This document shows, one piece after another, positions 34,396 to 54,462 of a DNA stretch of 64,000 nucleotides; the stretch's first letter is position 1; every line of letters starts with the position of its first letter. Both the position numbers and the translations under genes were made by a program. This DNA is from Oleomonas cavernae (GTDB lineage Bacteria; Pseudomonadota; Alphaproteobacteria; Zavarziniales; Zavarziniaceae), in NCBI RefSeq assembly GCF_003590945.1, contig NZ_QYUK01000011.1, positions 1,826,001 to 1,890,000 of the forward strand, read 5' to 3'. The notes under the pieces were generated by a model, which saw nothing but the letters and a program-made list of their open reading frames with translations, was not told the origin of the DNA and ran no database searches.

Positions 34396-35714
34396 TCAAG
34401 CTGGAACGGTGGCGGACCGGCCGATGGAATAGTAGTCGAAGCCGGCCTCGGCCATTTCGTCGGGACGATAGATGTTACGCAGGTCGACGATCACCGGCTG
34501 GGCCAGGGCGGCCTTCACGCGGGCAAGGTCGAGGGCACGGAATTCGTTCCATTCGGTGATGATCACCAGGACGTCGGCACCGGGCAGGGTGGCATAGGCA
34601 TCCTTCACCCATTCGACGCCCGCAATCATCGCCGCGGCGTTGGTCATGGCTTCGGGATCGAAGGCCCGAACCTTGGCGCCGGCCGCAATCAGGCGCGGCA
34701 GGATTTCCAGCGACGGGGCGTCGCGCATGTCGTCGGTATTGGGCTTGAAGGCGACGCCCAGCACGGCCACGGTCTTGCCCGCAAGGTCGCCGCCTGCTGC
34801 CGCGATCACCCGGTCGGCCATGGCGATCTTGCGGTCGTCGTTGACCGCCACCACCGCCTCGACGATGCGGCTGGGGGTGCCGTAATCGCGCGCGGTGCGC
34901 ACCAGGGCCAGGGTATCCTTGGGGAAGCACGAGCCGCCGAAGCCCGGCCCCGCGTGCAGGAACTTGCGCCCGATGCGGCCGTCGAGGCCGATGCCGCGGG
35001 CCACGTCGGAGACGTCGGCGCCGACCTTCTCGCACAGGTCCGCCATCTCGTTGATGAAGGTGATCTTGGTCGCCAGGAAGGCGTTGGCGGCGTATTTGAT
35101 CAGTTCCGAGGTCTCGCGCGAGGTGAAGACGAACGGCGTCTCGAGCAGGAACAGCGGGCGGTAGAGCTGGCGCATGACGGCGCGGGCGCGGTCGCTCTGG
35201 GCCCCACCACCACCCGGTCGGGCCGGCGGAAATCCTCGATCGCGTTGCCTTCGCGCAGGAATTCAGGGTTCGAGGCGACATCGAAGGCCAGGTCCGGCCG
35301 CACCGCGCGGATGCGCCGCTCGACCTCGGCACCGGTGCCCACGGGCACGGTCGACTTGGTCACGATCACGGTATAGCCGGTCAGGGCGGCGGCGATTTCC
35401 TCGGCCGCGGCATAGACGTAGGACAGGTCGGCATGGCCGTCGCCGCGGCGGCTGGGCGTACCCACGGCGATGAACACGGCGTCGGCGCCCTGCACCGCGG
35501 GGCCCAGCTCGGTGGTGAAGGACAGGCGGCCGGCGGCGGCATTCTCGGCCACCAGCTTGTCGAGGCCGGGTTCGAAGATCGGGATTTCACCCCGCTTCAG
35601 GGCCTCGATCTTGGCCGGGTCCTTGTCGACGCAGATAACGGAGTGACCGAACTCGGAAAAACAGGCACCAGACACCAGACCGACATAGCCCGTGCCAACC
35701 ATCGTCACCCGCAT
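34396..35714 (-). CDS. ugd: UDP-glucose 6-dehydrogenase (frameshifted in this sequence)
   Basis: About 440 residues after restoring one base in the C run 35202-35205. The NAD-binding start is MRVTMVGTGYVGLVSGACF. Past the break it continues with MRQLYRPLF, the catalytic Cys is in GPGFGGSCFPKDTLAL, and the C-terminal domain has GVAFKPNTDDMRDAPSLEI. It oxidises UDP-glucose to UDP-glucuronate for capsule or exopolysaccharide synthesis. It lies 17 bases downstream of galU, which makes its substrate. Confidence 0.9.
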
Positions 35715-43542: not shown

Positions 43543-43640
43543 CCGTCATCCCCGCGAAGGCGGGGATCCACGGTCATGGAGCACTGGAACAGACCCGTAT
43601 TGCCACCGTGGTGGATCCCCGTCTTCGCGGGGATGACGAC
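43543..43640. repeat. Inverted pair of family 2 repeats
   Basis: CGTCATCCCCGCGAAGGCGG plus GGATCCACGG at the left and the inverted GTGGATCCCCGTCTTCGCGG plus GGATGACG at the right enclose about 35 bases. It fills the whole convergent gap between the enoyl-reductase-like gene and the AhpD-like gene. Related copies are near 54167-54462 and 56866-56950. Confidence 0.85.
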
Positions 43641-43652
43641 TGGGGTTTCGTA

Positions 43653-44222
43653 CTACCGCCCCAACGTAAAAAATTCGTCGTTGGGGCGCATGCTGGTGAC
43701 ATTGGCCAGGCGGTTCGACAGGGCGAAGAACGCCGCGATCGCGGTGATATCCCAGGCATCCTCGTCGCTGAAGCCGTGCGCCTTCAACGCGGCAATCTCG
43801 TCGTCGCCCACCGCATAGGCCTCGAGCGCCACCTTCATGGCGAAGTCCAGCATGGCCTTCTGCCGCGCCGTGATGTCGGCCTTGCGGTAATTGATCGCGA
43901 CCTGGTCGGCAATCAGCGGATTCTTGGCGCGGATCCGCAGGATGGCACCATGGGCGATCACGCAATACTGGCACTGGTTGGCATTGCTGGTGGCGACCAC
44001 GATCATCTCGCGCTCGGCCTTGGTCAGGTTGCCGGGCTTGTCCATCAGGGCGTCGTGATAGGCAAAGAAGGCCCGGAATTCATCGGGCCGGCGCGCCAGC
44101 ACCAGGAAAACATTGGGCACGAAGCCGGACTTTTCCTGCACCGCGAGAATGCGCTCGCGAATGTCCTGCGGCAGGTCGGCGATTTCGGGCACCGGGAAAC
44201 GGCTGATGGCGGGCTGGGTCAT
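43653..44222 (-). CDS. Peroxidase-related protein, AhpD/carboxymuconolactone decarboxylase-like
   Basis: 189 residues. The redox motif CQYCVIAHG (near residue 82) with the preceding EREMIVVATSNANQ is the AhpD-like active site. DEDAWDITAIAAFFALSNRL and MRPNDEFFTLGR at the end match the uncharacterised peroxidase-related subfamily. It may reduce hydroperoxides or act as a thiol partner. It is the last gene of a six-gene compact minus-strand run and starts five bases after the GST stop. Confidence 0.88.
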   Translation of the reverse strand: MTQPAISRFPVPEIADLPQDIRERILAVQEKSGFVPNVFLVLARRPDEFRAFFAYHDALMDKPGNLTKAEREMIVVATSNANQCQYCVIAHGAILRIRAKNPLIADQVAINYRKADITARQKAMLDFAMKVALEAYAVGDDEIAALKAHGFSDEDAWDITAIAAFFALSNRLANVTSMRPNDEFFTLGR

Positions 44223-44227
44223 GGGTG

Positions 44228-44866
44228 TCAGGCCTTCTTCAGCGGGTGCCCCGGCATCAGGTCGTAAGGATGCTTCCAGCCCGGCAGGGCCTTGATCCGT
44301 TGCACCCAGGCGCCGATCGACGGGAACTCATGGTTCCAGTCGACGCCGAATTCCGTGTCGAAGAAGACATAGCCGGCCAGCGACAGGTCGGCGATCGTGA
44401 GGCCGTCGCCCACCACCCAGTCGCGCCCGCCCAGATGGCTGTCCAGAACCTTGGCCGCCGCCCGCACCCGGCCCTTGAGGAAGTCGAGCACCTCCGGCGC
44501 GGCCGGCTTGGGCGCGAAGTTCAAGAGGAAGCGATAGGTCGCGATATAGGAGGTGAACTTGTGATTGTCGAACAGGATCCAGCGCAGGATCTCGCGCCGT
44601 TCCGCGTCGTCCCGCCAGCCGAAGCGGCCCAGCGTCTCGACCAGGTAGTCGAGGATGACGCCCGACTGCGACAGGCGCACAGCCCCGTGTTCCAGCACCG
44701 GCACCTCGGCCATCACATTGACCGCCTGGTATTCCGGGGTGCGGGCCTCACCATTGAAGAAATCGACGAAGCGCGGGGACCAGTCCGCCCCGGCCAGTTC
44801 CAGGAACAGGGCCGGCTTGTAGGCGTTACCCGATTGGGCGAAGCAATAGAGCGTGTATTCGGCCAT
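44228..44866 (-). CDS. Glutathione S-transferase
   Basis: 212 residues. The N-terminal thioredoxin-like domain has LYCFAQSGNAYKPALFLELA, the cis-Pro in EVPVLEHG and the glutathione contact LSQSGVIL. The helical domain has GGRDWVVGDGLTIADLSLAGY with the conserved Asp. It starts three bases after the glycosyltransferase stop, so translational coupling is likely. In this operon a role in handling oxidised lipid products is plausible but inferred. Confidence 0.9.
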   Translation of the reverse strand: MAEYTLYCFAQSGNAYKPALFLELAGADWSPRFVDFFNGEARTPEYQAVNVMAEVPVLEHGAVRLSQSGVILDYLVETLGRFGWRDDAERREILRWILFDNHKFTSYIATYRFLLNFAPKPAAPEVLDFLKGRVRAAAKVLDSHLGGRDWVVGDGLTIADLSLAGYVFFDTEFGVDWNHEFPSIGAWVQRIKALPGWKHPYDLMPGHPLKKA

Positions 44867-44869
44867 TCC

Positions 44870-46078
44870 TCAGTCTCCCCTGGCATCGGACGATACGATA
44901 GACGACCAGCGCCGCCGCTCGATCCCCGTAACGCGCCCGCCCCGCATGCGGTAGACGCAATGGCCCCAGACCACCTTGCGGCGATCGAGGCTGAGCACGA
45001 TGGCCGCCAGATGCAGGAGGTGGATGACCGGCAGCAACAGCGGCATGAAGCGCAGGATTACCTCGACAACGCCGCCGACAGGGGCAATCCCCGCCCGGCG
45101 CGCCATCGATCGCCGCCGCTGGTCGGCGGCAGCGATCATGATCAGCGAGAGAGCATAGGCCGCGAGGCCGGCGGGCGAGTGGAAGGCCAGCCACAGCAGC
45201 GCGACCGAACCGAACAGGTTGGCCACCACCGTCACCGCCGCGGCCAGCCACAGCGGCCATTGATAGAACAGGAACATCTGATATTGCCGCTGCCCGAAGG
45301 CGATCAGCGACGCGAAACTATGCGCGACCGGCGTCGGCAGCAGGACCGAGCGCCGGAAGATCACCCGGGCCCCGGCACGCCGCGCCGCCTTGGCCAGGGA
45401 AAGGTCGTCGGAAATTTCGCGCTCGAACAGATCGGGCAGGCCCAGCCGCTCGACCGCGTCCCGGCGCAGGGCAATCGAGCCGCCCCAGGCGAGCCAGCCG
45501 TCGTTGGGCTTGGGCAGCCCTGCGACCGACCGGTCGATCCAGGTCCCCAGGACGGTGGCCGGGCGGGCATCGGCCGGCATCGTCCAGCGGTAACCGGTGA
45601 CGACATCGGCCACATCGCGGGTGAGCGGCCGCAGCAGATGGCCCAGCCAGTCGGGCGGGGGCAGAATGTCGATGTCGGCCAGCACCACATAGGGTTCGCT
45701 CTGGCCGAACAGGCGCAGGGCGGACGCCTGGTTGCGGCATTTCTGGCTGGATGCCGTCGCCTCCCCCGCCACCACCACATCGATCGAAAAGGGACTCGAC
45801 GCCACCAGCGCCAGCAGCCGCGCATAGGCCGGGTCGTCGACGGACTCGACGGCAAAGACGATCCGCGCTGGCCGGCAGCGTTGGGCCAGCAGGGCATCGT
45901 GGAAGGCCGCCAGCCGCGGCAAATCACCGGTCGCGGGAACGATCATCACGGCCCGCGCCGTCACCGGCTCGACCAGCGCCGGCACCCGCCGGCACATCAC
46001 ATGGGCCGTCACGAGCGTGACGACGGCGCTGATCAAGCCCAGCGCGCCGCCGGCCCAGGCGATGATCTCGGCAATCAT
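44870..46078 (-). CDS. Family 2/21 glycosyltransferase, ceramide glucosyltransferase-like
   Basis: 402 residues. One membrane segment at the N-terminus (residues about 2-25) and three or four at the C-terminus (about 270-375) frame a GT-A domain. Acidic catalytic parts are VLADIDILPPPDW, then the acceptor-site EISDDLSLAKAARRAG; FGQRQYQMFLF stands at the place of the usual QxxRW. This is the layout of ceramide glucosyltransferase and of hopanoid-linked HpnI. No other hpn gene is near, so the acceptor is open. The start at 46078 has GAGGAAGG; an upstream extension overlaps the P450 gene. Confidence 0.85.
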   Translation of the reverse strand: MIAEIIAWAGGALGLISAVVTLVTAHVMCRRVPALVEPVTARAVMIVPATGDLPRLAAFHDALLAQRCRPARIVFAVESVDDPAYARLLALVASSPFSIDVVVAGEATASSQKCRNQASALRLFGQSEPYVVLADIDILPPPDWLGHLLRPLTRDVADVVTGYRWTMPADARPATVLGTWIDRSVAGLPKPNDGWLAWGGSIALRRDAVERLGLPDLFEREISDDLSLAKAARRAGARVIFRRSVLLPTPVAHSFASLIAFGQRQYQMFLFYQWPLWLAAAVTVVANLFGSVALLWLAFHSPAGLAAYALSLIMIAAADQRRRSMARRAGIAPVGGVVEVILRFMPLLLPVIHLLHLAAIVLSLDRRKVVWGHCVYRMRGGRVTGIERRRWSSIVSSDARGD

Positions 46079-46100
46079 CAGCACCCTTCCTCGCCACCGA

Positions 46101-47501
46101 TCATTCGGCGGCGGCCTGGGCGTCGGCATTGCGCCGGGTGAGACGCAGCACGATGCCGTTGGCCGAGCGCAAGGTCAGCCGCGCCACCGGCTGTGGCTCG
46201 TGGCCCGGCTCGGCCTCGAAGCGATAGCGCCGGATCAGGGTCGCCAGGATCAAGGTCGCTTCCTGCAAGGCAAAGGCGGCGCCAAGGCAGACGCGCGGCC
46301 CCATGCTGAACGGCAGATAGGCGCAGCGCGCCGCCTCGGCGCCGCGCTCGGTCTCGAAGCGATCGGCGTCGAATTCGTCGGGCGCGTCCCAATGATTGCG
46401 GTTGCGATGAAGCATCCAGGGCGAGACGAAGATGATCGAGCCGGGCTTCACATCCTTGCCCCGCAGGCATTCGCCCTCGATCGGCGTGCGCGCGATGAAG
46501 GCGACGGGCGGGTAGAGGCGCAGGGCTTCGCGGAACACCGCGCGGGTATATTCCAGGCCGCGCAGGTCGCTGAAGACCGGTTGCCGGTCGCCCAGGACGG
46601 CCGTCACCTCGGCCAGCAGCCGCGCCTGGACCTCGGGCTGCTTGGCAATCAGGTAGAGCGTCCAGCCCAGCGCGCTGGCCGAGGTTTCGTGCCCGGCCAG
46701 GAACAGCATGGCGACCTGCTCGTAAAGCTCCTCGAAGCTGAAGGGCGTGCCATCGGTGGGGTCACGCGCCTCGAGCATCGCCGCCAGGATATCGCGCGCC
46801 GGCACCGCCTCGCCCCTGGCGATGCGCTCCAGCCGCGCGCGGATCATCGGCTCCAGCAGGCCGCGGATCTCGCGCGCGGCGCGGCCGGCGCGGGCGTGGC
46901 GGGGCGACAGGAAGGTGGGCAGGCGGAAGATGCGCAGCATGCCGTGGGCAAAGGCGATTTCCTGGAACTCGTTGAAGGCGGCGAAGACCCGTTCGGCCGC
47001 GCCCTGCTCCATGGTCGAGGAGAAGATCGTCCGCAGGATGATGTCGGCGGTAACGTGCGTGGTCTCGACATCGATCGTGTAGGGGCGGCCGTCGGCGACG
47101 GTGTCGAGGCGTGCCGCCATGTCACGCGTGGCGTCCAGCATCTGGGCGAAGACGTCCTTCACCCGCGCCGCCTCGAAGGCCGGATTCATCATGCCGCGCT
47201 GGCGCTTCCAGGTGGCGCCGTTGGAGGTGAAGATGCTGTCGCCCATCAGGCGCCGCAGCATGAAGCCCAGCACCTCGTCCTTGGGATAGTTGTCGGCCCT
47301 CTCGGCCAGGACGCGGCGCACCAGGGGCGGGTCGTTCAGCATGTAGAAGGTGCGGGTCGGCATCCGCACCTGCCCCATCTTCATGGTGTAGGCCTTGTCG
47401 GACAGGACCGACAGGCCGTCGCGCAGCCACATGGGCAACACCCGCCAGAACGGCGCGCCGCCTGGCTTGGGTTCCGGTTTGGGCGGGCGGAAGCCGGCCA
47501 T
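46101..47501 (-). CDS. Cytochrome P450
   Basis: 466 residues. The I-helix motif is LFLAGHETSASALGW, the K-helix ExxR is in REALRLYPP, and the heme-ligand loop is FSMGPRVCLGAAFALQE with the axial Cys. The N-terminus is proline-rich without a membrane anchor. The chain resembles the CYP4/CYP102-like fatty-acid-type branch (YPPVAFIARTPIEG), which hydroxylate acyl chains or terpenoids; the substrate is inferred only. It starts four bases after the membrane hydrolase stop and ends 22 bases before the glycosyltransferase. Confidence 0.92.
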   Translation of the reverse strand: MAGFRPPKPEPKPGGAPFWRVLPMWLRDGLSVLSDKAYTMKMGQVRMPTRTFYMLNDPPLVRRVLAERADNYPKDEVLGFMLRRLMGDSIFTSNGATWKRQRGMMNPAFEAARVKDVFAQMLDATRDMAARLDTVADGRPYTIDVETTHVTADIILRTIFSSTMEQGAAERVFAAFNEFQEIAFAHGMLRIFRLPTFLSPRHARAGRAAREIRGLLEPMIRARLERIARGEAVPARDILAAMLEARDPTDGTPFSFEELYEQVAMLFLAGHETSASALGWTLYLIAKQPEVQARLLAEVTAVLGDRQPVFSDLRGLEYTRAVFREALRLYPPVAFIARTPIEGECLRGKDVKPGSIIFVSPWMLHRNRNHWDAPDEFDADRFETERGAEAARCAYLPFSMGPRVCLGAAFALQEATLILATLIRRYRFEAEPGHEPQPVARLTLRSANGIVLRLTRRNADAQAAAE

Positions 47502-47505
47502 CTGT

Positions 47506-48714
47506 CTACTCCGGGGCCTCGGCCCTGTCGGGCGCAGTGTCGGCAAAGCGTTCGGCCAGCGCAAGCGGCCCGGCGACCATGGCAAAGAAGTCGCAACGGC
47601 CCAGGCGCGGCGTCGCCATCAGGTATTGCGTATGCATCTGGTAGCGATCCTGCTTCAACGCGGCATAGCCTTCCTTGCCGAACAGGACATGGAAGCGCGG
47701 CGAGACCAGCTTCGGGCTGACCGGCGCCCCGGGCGGGCGCTCGCGGCCGATCAGTTCCAGGGGGTCGATCCGGGGGAAACAAGCCACGTCGTAGGCGGCG
47801 GTGATGTCGACCCAGGTCACGGCCGGATCAAGCGCGATGCGCGCGATTTCATCGCGGAACCAGGCCGAGCGCGGTTCGAGCGCCAGCAGCGGCGTCATCG
47901 AGCCCAAGGTGGCGAAGGCAAGGCGGGGCACGCCGGCGAAATCCTCCGGTCGCCTGGCCAGGGCGCGGCCCAGGGCTGAAATGGCCAGGGTCGTGCCGAC
48001 GCTGTGGCCGATGACCAGGAGCTCGTCCACGCCGCCCTCGCGCGCTGCATCGGCGATCCGCGCCGCCAGGGCATCGAGCTTGGCGTCGAGATAGGGAAGC
48101 TGGCCGGCGATCTGCCAGGCATAGAAGTTGCTGAGCTGTATCCGCCACAGCACGCTGCTGGTCCGTTGCAGCCAGCGCAGCATGGGCTTGAACGCGAAGA
48201 GCCCCAGCGGCGCGCCGGCAAGGGCGAACAGCACCTCGACTTCGGCGGCCCACAGGCCCAGCGACAGCAGGAGCAAGATCGCCGCCGGCAGCCCCAGGAG
48301 GATCAGCAGGACCGTCGACACCGGCTCGAGGATATTCAGCAGGTACCAGTGCCTGATCTTGAAGATGCGCCTGAAATAGCCGTAGCGGACACCCCACCAC
48401 AGGGTGGTCGCCGTGCTGCGCACGATCGACCAGTCCGGCCGCGGCCACATGCGGCGGACCACGTCGTCCCAGCGCAGGAACTCGAACCGGGTCTCGGTCG
48501 CCACGGTCTCGCCGCCGACCCGGGTCTCGCCGGTGAGGGTCCACTCGAACACTTGCCCGCCATGCCGCCGGGGCGGCCCCAGATGGTAGGCGGTGCCGGG
48601 GCCGGCGGTCGCGGCGGCCTTGGGCGCTTCCTCCCGCCACAGCTCGTAATAGTGGCGCGGCCCGCGCGGATCGAAACCGCTGATGAACAATACCCGTCTG
48701 CGTCTGATCACCAT
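47506..48714 (-). CDS. Membrane-associated alpha/beta hydrolase-like protein
   Basis: 402 residues. The N-terminus VLFISGFDPRGPRHYYELW looks like the first strand of an alpha/beta hydrolase. One or two membrane helices follow near 135-175 (TVLLILLGLPAAILLLLSLG). The nucleophile elbow is GHSVGTTLAISAL (Ser near 240), and a Asp/His pair for the triad is plausible near the C-terminus but not certain. I do not recognise a named family; lipase or acyl-hydrolase function is inferred. It lies between the patatin and P450 genes with gaps of 11 and 4 bases. Confidence 0.75.
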   Translation of the reverse strand: MVIRRRRVLFISGFDPRGPRHYYELWREEAPKAAATAGPGTAYHLGPPRRHGGQVFEWTLTGETRVGGETVATETRFEFLRWDDVVRRMWPRPDWSIVRSTATTLWWGVRYGYFRRIFKIRHWYLLNILEPVSTVLLILLGLPAAILLLLSLGLWAAEVEVLFALAGAPLGLFAFKPMLRWLQRTSSVLWRIQLSNFYAWQIAGQLPYLDAKLDALAARIADAAREGGVDELLVIGHSVGTTLAISALGRALARRPEDFAGVPRLAFATLGSMTPLLALEPRSAWFRDEIARIALDPAVTWVDITAAYDVACFPRIDPLELIGRERPPGAPVSPKLVSPRFHVLFGKEGYAALKQDRYQMHTQYLMATPRLGRCDFFAMVAGPLALAERFADTAPDRAEAPE

Positions 48715-48725
48715 GCAACCCGCGA

Positions 48726-49832
48726 TTATTCCTGGCGACGCCGACCATACAACGGAATGCCCATACGCATCCGCTGTCGCAGGCGAAGCGGCGGCAGGTC
48801 GGCGAAGGGCGAGTCCGTCTCGTCACCGAACAGCGTCGCAATGGCCGACCAGCCGGCCGAGGCGCCGCGCAACAGCCGGACCCGCCGCCGCTCGACCTTG
48901 CCGATTTCGCGCAGCGGCCGCGCCGGGCGGATCACGGCGAGATGGGGGTTGCCCGGCCCCGGCAGATGCGCGTCGAGCAGGCTGGCGGCCAGCTTGAGGT
49001 AGAGCTGCGGCCGGGCGAGATAGGCGGCGGCCACCGCCGGCGAGACGCGGCGGGCCAGCAGGCGCGCGAACCAGGACCGGCTGGGCCCGCCATCGAGGCC
49101 CGAGACATCGGGCCGGGTCGACAGCACCAGGAGGTGAGTCGCCCCCTCCGCCGCCGCCAGGGCCACCGGGATCGGGGCCGACAGGGCGCCATCGACCAGC
49201 AGCCGGCCGTCGGCGCCGGGGACCGGCCGGCCACCGACCATGGGCAGCCTGGTGCTGGCCCGCAGGCTGTTGAGGACGGCGGCGCGATTGCGAAACCCCC
49301 GCAAGCCGACGGCGGCGCCGGTCGCCACGTCGGTCGCCATCATGACCAGGGGAATCGGCGAGGCGATCACCCGTTCGGCATCGAGCGCGCGGATCTCGCC
49401 GATCACGTTGTCGATCAGATAATCCGTGTTCATCACCGGCCGGCCGATCAGGGCGCGGCCGAAGCGCAGGAAGGCCTTGTTGTTGATGTCCTCGTAGAAG
49501 ATGCGGGTGCCGTCCAGCGCCTGGCCGGCCAGCAGATAGGCCCCGGCGCAGGCCCCGGCCGAGGTGCCGTAGACCGCATCGATGGTGTCGAGCAGCCCCA
49601 GGACCTCGAGGGCCGAAACCATGCCGCCGGCGACCACGCCCCGCATGCCGCCGCCCTCGATGACCACGGCGAGGCGATAGGCATCCTGCCGGGCGCCGGG
49701 CTTGGAACCGGCCGCCTGCCGCGCCCGCATCAGTTCGATCACCGGGCTGTCCGCCAGCGACGGCTCCTCCACCCGAGGCTTCCGTCTGACGCGCCAGATC
49801 AGGGGGCGGCCACGCCTTGCGCTCGCCTGCAT
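48726..49832 (-). CDS. Patatin-like phospholipase
   Basis: 368 residues. The oxyanion hole GGGMRGVVAGG (residues about 55-65), the serine in GTSAGACAGAY (GxSxG) and the catalytic Asp in DGALSAPIPV form the patatin Ser-Asp dyad. The C-terminus is basic. It should hydrolyse acyl esters of membrane lipids. It is the first gene of the compact run 49832-43653; four following genes also act on lipids or small molecules. A long antisense frame exists but has no motif. Confidence 0.9.
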   Translation of the reverse strand: MQASARRGRPLIWRVRRKPRVEEPSLADSPVIELMRARQAAGSKPGARQDAYRLAVVIEGGGMRGVVAGGMVSALEVLGLLDTIDAVYGTSAGACAGAYLLAGQALDGTRIFYEDINNKAFLRFGRALIGRPVMNTDYLIDNVIGEIRALDAERVIASPIPLVMMATDVATGAAVGLRGFRNRAAVLNSLRASTRLPMVGGRPVPGADGRLLVDGALSAPIPVALAAAEGATHLLVLSTRPDVSGLDGGPSRSWFARLLARRVSPAVAAAYLARPQLYLKLAASLLDAHLPGPGNPHLAVIRPARPLREIGKVERRRVRLLRGASAGWSAIATLFGDETDSPFADLPPLRLRQRMRMGIPLYGRRRQE

Positions 49833-49920
49833 CCGCTCCTCGGTATTGCCACAACCGCATCATATGGCTGGAATGACGCGCGGAAGCAACGCCACCAAAG
49901 GGATGACGCGTCGAACGGCC

Positions 49921-51423
<1,503 letters not shown>

Positions 51424-51542: not shown

Positions 51543-52564
51543 ATGGATGGCGCCCAGAACCGGCCGAAGGCCCCTGTGACCCCGCTGATCGATCCGTTCC
51601 AGCGGACCATCACCTATCTGCGCGTTTCGGTCACCGATCGCTGCGATTTCCGCTGCCAGTATTGCATGGCCGAGGAAATGACCTTCCTGCCCAAGGCCGA
51701 CCTGCTGACCTATGACGAGCTGGACCGGCTGTGCTCGGCCTTCATCCGCCGGGCCTGCGCCGCCTGCGCCTGACCGGGGGCGAGCCCCTGGTGCGCCGCG
51801 GCCTGATGGACCTGATCCGCGGCCTCTCCCGCCACCTACGGTCAGGCGACCTCGACGAACTGACCCTGACCACCAACGGCAGCCGCCTGGCCCTGTTCGC
51901 GCCCGAACTGGCGGCGGCGGGGGTGAAGCGCATCAATGTCAGCGTCGACACGCTGGATCCCGCTGCCTTCAAGGCGATCACCCGCCGGGGCGACCTAGGC
52001 GTCGTGCTCGACGGCATTCGTGCCGCCCAGGATGCCGGCATCGCGGTGAAGATCAACACCGTGGCGCTGAAGGGCATCAACGAGGATCAACTGATCCCGC
52101 TGGTCGACTGGGCCCATGGGCAGGGCATGGACATCACCTTCATCGAGACCATGCCGCTGGGCGACATCGACGGCGACCGCACCGATCACTACCTGCCCCT
52201 GACCCAGGTCCGGGCGCGTCTGGCCCAGCGCTATGCCATGAGCGAGAGCGGCCACCGCACCGGCGGCCCGGCACGCTATGTCCATGTGACCGAGACCGGG
52301 CGGCGCATCGGCTTCATCACGCCGTTGACCCACAATTTCTGCGAGACCTGCAACCGCGTGCGCCTGACCTGCACCGGCACCCTCTACATGTGCTTAGGCC
52401 AGGAGGATTCGGCCGACCTGCGCGCGGTGCTGCGCGGCGGCGGCGACATCGATGCGGCACTCGACGAAGCCATCGCCCGCAAGCCCAAGGGCCACGACTT
52501 CGTCATCGACCGCCCCGGCGCCCGGCCGGCCGTTGCCCGCCACATGAGCACCACCGGCGGCTGA
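51543..52564 (+). CDS. moaA: GTP 3',8-cyclase MoaA (frameshifted in this sequence)
   Basis: About 340 residues after adding one G to the run at 51751-51753. The radical-SAM cluster is [12 protein letters not shown]. After the break [16 protein letters not shown] follows. The second cluster is in [20 protein letters not shown], and the chain ends in the family-typical Gly-Gly (HMSTTGG). MoaA makes the first intermediate of molybdopterin. Both halves are otherwise intact, so the break is most likely an artefact of sequencing. Confidence 0.93.
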
Positions 52565-53452: not shown

Positions 53453-53998
53453 ATGTCCTTTGTCAAAAACCAGTCGCAGATTTTTTTCAGGTCTGTAGCG
53501 GGGCAGACGTATTTTTTTCCGCCTGCTGGGAGACTTGGCAAAGGCTATCTCGTCACGCCCGAGAACAAGATACGAATAGAGACTGCGATCAAGCGATGGT
53601 TTGTAGCCTTTGTCGCTTGGCTTATTGCCCAATTCATTCTGTTGTCGGCTCTTGATCTAGACATCGCAATAACGATCATCAGCGCAATTTTTGTTATCTT
53701 TATTGCGATTTCGGCGATTTTTATGAGACGCTTAACACAAGGGCTTGAGGAAACGGCAATAAGAATGTCGATCAACGAGGCCATTGAGGACCAGGCACGA
53801 AAGATCACAAAGAGGCGGTTGTACTATCTTTTAGGCAGTTCTCTTTTCATGACCGCCGCATCGATCTTCGCTTTCGTCATCTCATTGAAAGACCCTGGCT
53901 GGAATACAGCTTATGCCGTTTTGGGCTTCTTCCTGTTTTCGTGTGGACTAACTTACTATGTCCATCTCGCACGCATACGTTCGCGGACTATGCGCTGA
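53453..53998 (+). CDS. GC-poor membrane protein of unknown function
   Basis: 181 residues. The N-terminal GQTYFFPPAGRLGKGYLVTP resembles a short motif seen at the start of a known uncharacterised family of small membrane proteins. Four hydrophobic segments lie at about 53-70, 73-90, 125-145 and 150-170 (FVAWLIAQFILLSALDL, ITIISAIFVIFIAISAIF). Base composition is far lower in GC than the neighbours, and it sits between the true nadK end and a duplicate of that end. Transferred origin is likely. No motif suggests an activity. Confidence 0.72.
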   Translation: MSFVKNQSQIFFRSVAGQTYFFPPAGRLGKGYLVTPENKIRIETAIKRWFVAFVAWLIAQFILLSALDLDIAITIISAIFVIFIAISAIFMRRLTQGLEETAIRMSINEAIEDQARKITKRRLYYLLGSSLFMTAASIFAFVISLKDPGWNTAYAVLGFFLFSCGLTYYVHLARIRSRTMR

Positions 53999-54131: not shown

Positions 54132-54166
54132 TCAAGGCCATCGCCGGCCGATGTAACCTCTCAGCC

Positions 54167-54462
54167 GTCATCCCCGCGAAGGCGGGGATCCACGGAAATG
54201 GCAGGCCCGGACGGCGCCGAGATCCTGGTTTCGGTTCCAGCCCTTGCCCATCGGTGGATCCCGGCCTTCGCCGGGATGACGGCGATTTGTGGGCGAGCGC
54301 ATTCTGACGGAACAGTTCGCGCCGCAGCTTGCAACCCCATCAGTGTCATCCCGGCGAAGGCCCGGATCCATTGGAATGGCACGCGCAACCTATCGCGCGA
54401 TACTGGTTTTCAGGCCCCCTTGCACGCCGATGGATCCCGGCCTTCGCCGGGATGACGGCTGG
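54167..54462. repeat. Cluster of family 2 repeats with a third nadK-tail fragment
   Basis: At least four copies lie here in alternating orientation: 54167-54196, 54251-54283, 54343-54373 and 54430-54462, each of the form GTCATCCCGGCGAAGG...GGATCCA. Between the second and third, 54289-54324 reads [12 protein letters not shown] in frame, a further copy of the nadK C-terminus. The cluster occupies a convergent gap. Confidence 0.8.

Follow-up and report, generated by a model that had tools for sequence, protein, structure and literature searches.

A putative envelope-lipid tailoring operon built on a hydrolase-cytochrome P450 gene pair in Oleomonas cavernae and Zavarzinia

Introduction

The described systems closest to the gene run reported here are the membrane glycosyltransferases of the HpnI and GT21 type, which act on bacteriohopanetetrol and ceramide, the lipid A 3'-O-deacylase LpxR of the bacterial outer membrane, and the capsule-type gene clusters marked by PF05159 (Capsule_synth, KpsC/KpsS type). 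The (Q/R)xxRW motif is typical of the GT21 family. Cytochromes P450 of the LUTEIN DEFICIENT 5, CYP4B1, CYP46A1 and BM3 type, which act on long hydrophobic substrates, are also related. The run itself lies at positions 43653-49832 of a 64,000-nucleotide stretch of the Oleomonas cavernae genome (NCBI RefSeq assembly GCF_003590945.1, contig NZ_QYUK01000011.1, positions 1,826,001 to 1,890,000), hereafter the window, which is a piece of a 4.37-Mb contig in a genome of 5.64 Mb. Six minus-strand genes are found in it, encoding a patatin-like hydrolase, a membrane alpha/beta-hydrolase-like protein (Hyd), a cytochrome P450, a membrane glycosyltransferase (GT), a glutathione S-transferase (GST) and a peroxidase-related protein of the AhpD/CMD type.

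With a probability of about one half, the run can be read as an envelope-lipid tailoring operon built on a Hyd-P450 module, to which Zavarzinia added the GT21-type variant, the patatin and, in four other species, an LpxR-family protein. The GT shares with HpnI and GT21 the superfamily, the membrane nature and the DxD and SDD motifs. The profile of the LpxR proteins in the congeners matched the Salmonella LpxR structure 3fid at 3.3e-17, with one His of the pair aligned, and the window locus differs from that system in having no LpxR gene. Hyd and a P450 of the same clade also stand near PF05159 genes in Polaromonas JS666 and in three further genomes (G455, G1026 and G1059).

Results

Gene order in Zavarzinia

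All six open reading frames (ORFs) start with ATG and are separated by 11, 4, 22, 3 and 5 bases, and the coordinates given by the initial annotation for this arrangement were confirmed. Its family labels also held in Pfam and NCBIfam for the patatin, P450, Glyco_transf_21, GST and TIGR01926/AhpD proteins, and the hydrolase, for which no family was found, carries the motif GHSVG. No sigma-70-like promoter was seen on the minus strand inside the run, where the initial annotation had allowed that separate promoters might break the transcript, and three terminator-like sites were counted against a mean of 2.8 in shuffled sequence; both scans are weak evidence.

Conservation was followed in six Zavarzinia genomes, the window's own included. 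The GT was present in five of them, and the sixth (G003) is 74% complete and lies in 670 contigs. The order patatin-Hyd-P450-GT on one strand was kept in all four other clusters, giving five of the six genomes, and the neighbouring genes of this block are spaced by -14 to 50 bases in the congeners (gaps or overlaps, some of the start codons behind them being the analyst's choice). The block adjoins glpK, moaA and an NAD kinase gene in three species; in G004 and G005 its neighbours are different. The conserved unit, found at two chromosomal sites, is thus (LpxR)-patatin-Hyd-P450-GT. A scan of genome contigs with the GT as a single-protein query gave its only named match in Z. marina.

The last two genes of the run behaved differently from this block. 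GST (212 aa, 44228-44866, minus strand; PF02798 and PF00043, with 40.3 bits for GST_N and 40.2 for GST_C) stands after the GT in three of five clusters, those of the window, G001 and G002, with 78-83% identity; it is an accessory and not a constant member. The AhpD-like gene (189 aa, 43653-44222, minus strand) gave 219.1 bits with TIGR01926 ("peroxidase-related enzyme", cut-off 81.8), matched AhpD core domains and carries the CxxC motif CQYC. No AhpD match was found in the 17.6-20 kb read round each of the other four clusters, so it occurs at the locus in the window species alone and is probably outside the pathway. The congener loci rule out the six genes as one conserved unit. The expected conservation of a six-family order was therefore seen in the window only, which is the single-strain case that the initial annotation had named as refuting it, while the four-gene order is shared within the genus. 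The lipid-modification reading stood in kind for four of the six genes and was not supported for GST as a constant member or for AhpD as a member.

The hydrolase Hyd

Hyd (402 aa, 47506-48714, minus strand) reached no Pfam or NCBIfam cut-off, and some of its relatives gave matches below cut-off with Abhydrolase_6, Thioesterase or Lipase_3. Its candidate triad is S238, D309 and H361. Among 53 Hyds, S238 was kept in 51 and replaced by Cys in two, D309 was kept in all 53 and H361 in 52, the sole exception being a piece of an interrupted Hyd gene. A strongly hydrophobic stretch, at about residues 123-167 of the window protein, lies ahead of the nucleophile in all 16 Hyds compared. The AlphaFold2 model, made from a two-sequence alignment, had a pLDDT of 48.7, and the best match to PDB profiles had an E of 0.011.

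A profile of five Zavarzinia Hyds found matches in 10 of 385 genomes of the class, four of them Zavarzinia. With a profile of 16 sequences, 62 of 398 genomes of the phylum matched at E<=0.001 (44 strongly, E<1e-60, and 18 with weak partial matches), together with 126 of 149 genomes of one family, f23, sampled at one genome per genus. From its sequences f23 appears to be Rhodobacteraceae, because Hyds from Paracoccus ferrooxidans and from Pseudorhodobacter turbinis fall among its own, and it is taken as such below. In the portions of the literature available, no function assigned to the Hyd-P450 pair was found in print, which is no proof of novelty.

The P450 and its linkage to Hyd

The P450 (466 aa, 46101-47501, minus strand) scored 271.3 bits with PF00067, above the Pfam cut-off. 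Its haem motif FSMGPRVCLG with C405, and E325 and R328 of the ExxR motif, are invariant in five Zavarzinia sequences, and the protein also carries AGHETS. The best solved relatives include LUTEIN DEFICIENT 5 (205.2 bits), the putative P450 7wzl, CYP4B1, CYP46A1 and BM3; the substrate here is not fixed by this kinship. Redox partner genes were not recognised inside the run, and P450 redox partners are commonly encoded elsewhere in the genome.

The 56 best-scoring Hyd loci, which are not a random draw, were read together with up to 1.5 kb on either side. A P450 adjoins Hyd in 54 of them, namely in two Zavarzinia loci and in all 52 loci of Rhodobacteraceae, where it comes directly after Hyd; at one locus (L114) it is a fragment at the contig end. 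The other two loci belong to family f70, which groups with Methylobacterium in the Hyd tree.

In a maximum-likelihood tree, 26 Hyd-linked P450s, hand-picked for spread, fell on one side of a branch with support 99/100, against 12 other P450s. These others came from six genomes, including four with a linked P450 as well, and were chosen from the best 30 of 46 matches (6 linked and 17 others at E 1e-5, of which those above 300 residues, 12 in all, were kept). The split held when three betaproteobacterial P450s were added, with 29 linked against 10 other sequences and a FastTree support of 100, in a tree that omitted two long-branch rows. In the Hyd tree (49 Hyds from 48 loci), 22 P450-linked Hyds likewise formed one side of a branch (99/99). 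The linked clades of both trees separate Zavarzinia, Polaromonas, G455 and G740 from Rhodobacteraceae, with support of 98/94 for P450 and 89/98 for Hyd. As judged from the two trees, the pair is an old two-gene module, and its genes are not neighbours by chance. The Rhodobacteraceae-type pair is like that of Zavarzinia in both families, in order, in strand and in forming a single clade each, and unlike it in that no recognised GT, patatin or LpxR gene adjoins it in the loci read.

Hyds of the Methylobacterium, Bradyrhizobium and Rhizobium type had no adjoining P450 match. Some Hyds outside the P450-linked clade adjoin a protein annotated as, or matching, isoprenylcysteine methyltransferase (ICMT). 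An ICMT/PEMT-type membrane methyltransferase was seen beside distant Hyds of the Bradyrhizobium/Rhizobium type (L130, 5326-5913; L060, 5543-6127), and these two proteins are perhaps a different lipid-modifying pair. In addition, a CcdA-like gene directly precedes Hyd in five loci of the Rhodobacteraceae type (L043-L046 and L056), and the three that were scanned all matched DsbD_TM (L043, 8518-9270; L044, 10496-11251; L056, 4207-4956). In Paracoccus a peptidase gene precedes Hyd in its place.

The glycosyltransferase variant

The GT (402 aa, 44870-46078, minus strand) gave 47.9 bits with PF13506 Glyco_transf_21 (cut-off 21.7), and matched the HpnI model TIGR03472 over nearly its full length with 69.6 bits against a cut-off of 310. 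The DxD motif (ADxD) and SDD are invariant in the six cluster members, all of which carry RQYQM at the place of the (Q/R)xxRW motif, against ELRW in eight of eight aligned relatives of the class. The next relatives in 289 genomes of the class reached 59 bits at most. No protein over the HpnI cut-off and no hopene cyclase (TIGR01507) was found in the six Zavarzinia genomes. Thus the GT differs from HpnI in score, motif and genomic setting and from GT21 in the motif, and HpnI itself (hopanoid glycosylation) is ruled out by the score, the motif and the lack of hopene cyclase in the genus. The label "ceramide-glucosyltransferase-like" given initially was right at superfamily depth and did not survive the replaced motif, and by its sequence the GT could not safely be called a ceramide glucosyltransferase. 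The AlphaFold2 model, again from a two-sequence alignment, had a pLDDT of 48.4, and no match was obtained among PDB profiles.

In two species of one betaproteobacterial genus, a Hyd with 49% identity to that of the window precedes a GT with 51% identity to its counterpart in the window. Of 187 genomes in the family concerned, two carry this GT relative, and its neighbours do not differ between them. This patchy occurrence suggests that a Hyd-GT pair moved between classes.

Patatin and LpxR

The patatin-like hydrolase (368 aa, 48726-49832, minus strand), the first gene of the run in the window, scored 66.4 bits with PF01734 (cut-off 27.7). Its place in the order and its Ser-Asp dyad motifs, GTSAG and DGA, are kept in all five Zavarzinia clusters; its matches to PDB profiles were weak, with PlpD the best. 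An LpxR-family gene, for an outer-membrane lipid A deacylase, stands 8-14 bases before the patatin gene in all four congeners with the cluster, scoring 297-306 bits with PF09982. The window genome holds two LpxR-like genes elsewhere, with 291 and 250 bits. The cluster copies reached 652-702 bits with the same profile, high scores that arise by construction because the profile was made from these copies. No other LpxR operon containing a P450 was found in an open-access literature search, within the parts of the sources that could be consulted.

Company of the pair in other lineages

On plasmid 1 of Polaromonas JS666 the genes run in the order family-1 GT, PF05159 capsule gene, GT28/EryCIII-type GT, Hyd, P450, a 114-aa protein and a second Hyd. 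In G455, P450 and a Hyd gene interrupted by an ISL3-type transposase gene are accompanied by two PF05159 genes and another transposase; the module is rare in the order of this genome, with matches in 5 of 349 genomes, one of them weak. The order in G1026 is PF05159, P450, Hyd, PF05159. G1059 has a GT4-type GT, Hyd, a 114-aa protein and PF05159, with the P450 about 3 kb off on Hyd's strand and not adjacent. Altogether PF05159 genes lie near Hyd and P450 in four of six other-lineage loci. These clusters differ from Zavarzinia in that no PF05159 was recognised in the Zavarzinia loci, and the clusters are without patatin, LpxR or a match to the variant GT21. Outside the P450-linked clade, Hyd adjoins a GT28-type GT in Methylorubrum CM4 and G466.

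The 114-aa protein has no Pfam match and is 72% identical between Polaromonas and G1059 (L196, 9324-9668; L052, 6645-6989). It is maybe a further part of the betaproteobacterial version of the system.

Surroundings of the run in the window

The 88 bases between the run and glpK (49833-49920; the stop of glpK is at 49921, minus strand) correspond to the LpxR site in G001 and G002, two genomes with glpK at this place too, and glpK could share the transcript of the run. Four proteins gave no match to phage families. Just downstream of the run lies a short dispersed repeat (43601-43647, also 43544-43571 and 54162-54193). It matches 30 other places in the genome in part, over 28-45 bases at 76-97% identity and on both strands, and looks like an intergenic palindromic element.

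Further off, moaA appears split across two plus-strand frames (51543-51773, with the radical-SAM start, and 51731-52564, with the rest and Mob_synth_C), through a sequencing error or as a broken gene. Likewise, a UDP-glucose dehydrogenase-like gene is apparently spread over two overlapping minus-strand frames (34396-35175 and 35100-35714); it adjoins an ORF that we take to be galU-like, and both names are presumed from the start of the sequence. A 181-aa membrane-type ORF at 53453-53998 (plus strand), with no Pfam match, has a third-position GC of 0.54 against about 0.85-0.93 in its neighbours and may be imported.

Discussion

Proposed function

What is observed is the conservation of gene order, a history common to Hyd and P450, the adjacency of GT and Hyd in a second class, and conserved catalytic residues. 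The envelope-lipid reading is taken because LpxR stands in four of four congener clusters and capsule and glycosyltransferase genes lie beside Hyd in several other lineages. From these we infer the substrate, the order of steps, the product and the working of the enzymes in a single pathway, as follows. The P450 would work at the inner membrane, on a membrane lipid or a precursor of it, and hydroxylate a long acyl or alkyl chain there. Hyd, which a central hydrophobic segment would keep in the membrane, would release or transfer an acyl group through its Ser-Asp-His triad, and this action would make the substrate of the P450 or cap its product. The GT would then add a sugar, giving a hydroxylated glycolipid, and the patatin, together with LpxR where present, would strip the pool, or the finished lipid, of acyl chains. 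GST and AhpD would be accessory or fortuitous.

Chemotaxonomic data fit this proposal without proving it. A comparison table (PMC11164329), in its text form and with Zavarzinia as the last of 14 columns, gives C18:1 2-OH at 11.4-11.8% and an unidentified glycolipid for Zavarzinia.

Several points weigh on the other side. The hydroxy fatty acid of Zavarzinia may come from another hydroxylase, and carotenoids and terpenes are also among the substrates of P450s of this type. The GT departs from its superfamily in a motif that is usually present, and might have lost or changed its activity. One of the two Hyds with Cys for Ser is that of the betaproteobacterial locus L196. The window locus itself is without LpxR, glpK directly preceding the patatin gene, and patatin and LpxR were seen beside Hyd-P450 in Zavarzinia only. 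Since no recognised GT stands beside the pair in the Rhodobacteraceae loci read, glycosylation would not be intrinsic to it. In G933 and G740, Hyd and P450 have no sugar gene nearby, with one neighbour scanned in each.

Alternative explanations

A catabolic or detoxifying cluster, in which the hydrolases would liberate a fatty acid or ester from an external compound for oxidation by the P450, and GST and AhpD would clean up, is an unlikely explanation. The eight P450 matches in the window genome and the clusters with GST or AhpD would agree with it, and Zavarzinia appears in papers on hydrocarbon-degrading communities, as far as these were available. However, Hyd occurs in so many genera of Rhodobacteraceae that it is unlike a patchy catabolic trait, and the GT, LpxR and capsule-type neighbours do not fit. 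LpxR and the capsule-type neighbours also tell against the P450 being a carotenoid or terpenoid hydroxylase whose product the GT would glycosylate, with Hyd and patatin acylating or deacylating it, which we regard as very improbable. For it speak LUTEIN DEFICIENT 5, as the best solved relative of the P450 profile, and the best NCBIfam matches of the P450, to albaflavenone and pentalenene oxygenases, far below cut-off; against it, hopene cyclase is lacking in all six Zavarzinia genomes.

A P450, a GT and a hydrolase are together a common tailoring set, and the pair might instead modify a signal or secondary metabolite, hydroxylating and hydrolysing acyl chains such as those of long-chain acyl-homoserine lactones, with the product glycosylated in Zavarzinia. 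A Rhodobacteraceae strain makes poly-hydroxylated long-chain acyl-homoserine lactones, for which oxidation of the chain by a P450 has been proposed (PMC5479921). The signal or metabolite reading is rather improbable, as no synthase or carrier gene was recognised beside the pair in the inspected loci and the capsule-type neighbours and LpxR would be left unexplained.

The idea closest to the initial annotation is that all six genes form one oxidised-glycolipid pathway, with GST and AhpD guarding against peroxides. The gaps of 3-22 bases in the window and the adjacency of GST to the GT in three clusters would suit it. However, AhpD is found in one cluster of five and GST in three, and P450 hydroxylation itself needs no alkyl hydroperoxidase. 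Peroxide protection thus found no support, and this version is the least credible of those considered.

Significance

An open-access literature search, limited to the parts of the sources that could be seen, returned no account of a Hyd-P450 pair, nor of a P450 together with LpxR or KpsS, which again does not prove novelty. The envelope-lipid reading can be widened, tentatively, to the proposal that Hyd-P450 may be an undescribed two-enzyme envelope step for making or remodelling a hydroxylated lipid, present almost throughout Rhodobacteraceae and here and there among other Alpha- and Betaproteobacteria. In Zavarzinia and in the betaproteobacterial capsule-type loci it would be joined to glycosyltransferases, including the new RQYQM lineage, for a hydroxy-glycolipid, perhaps as a lipid anchor for surface sugars.

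Bacterial P450s are usually regarded as patchy accessory enzymes. A pair whose two genes have remained linked in both Alpha- and Betaproteobacteria, and which most genera sampled in a large family possess, should serve a basic role. The Hyd family and the motif-variant GT each merit enzymology. The Hyd-P450 pair offers a testable handle on unidentified alphaproteobacterial lipids, and the partner enzymes of the Zavarzinia operon hint at the chemistry.

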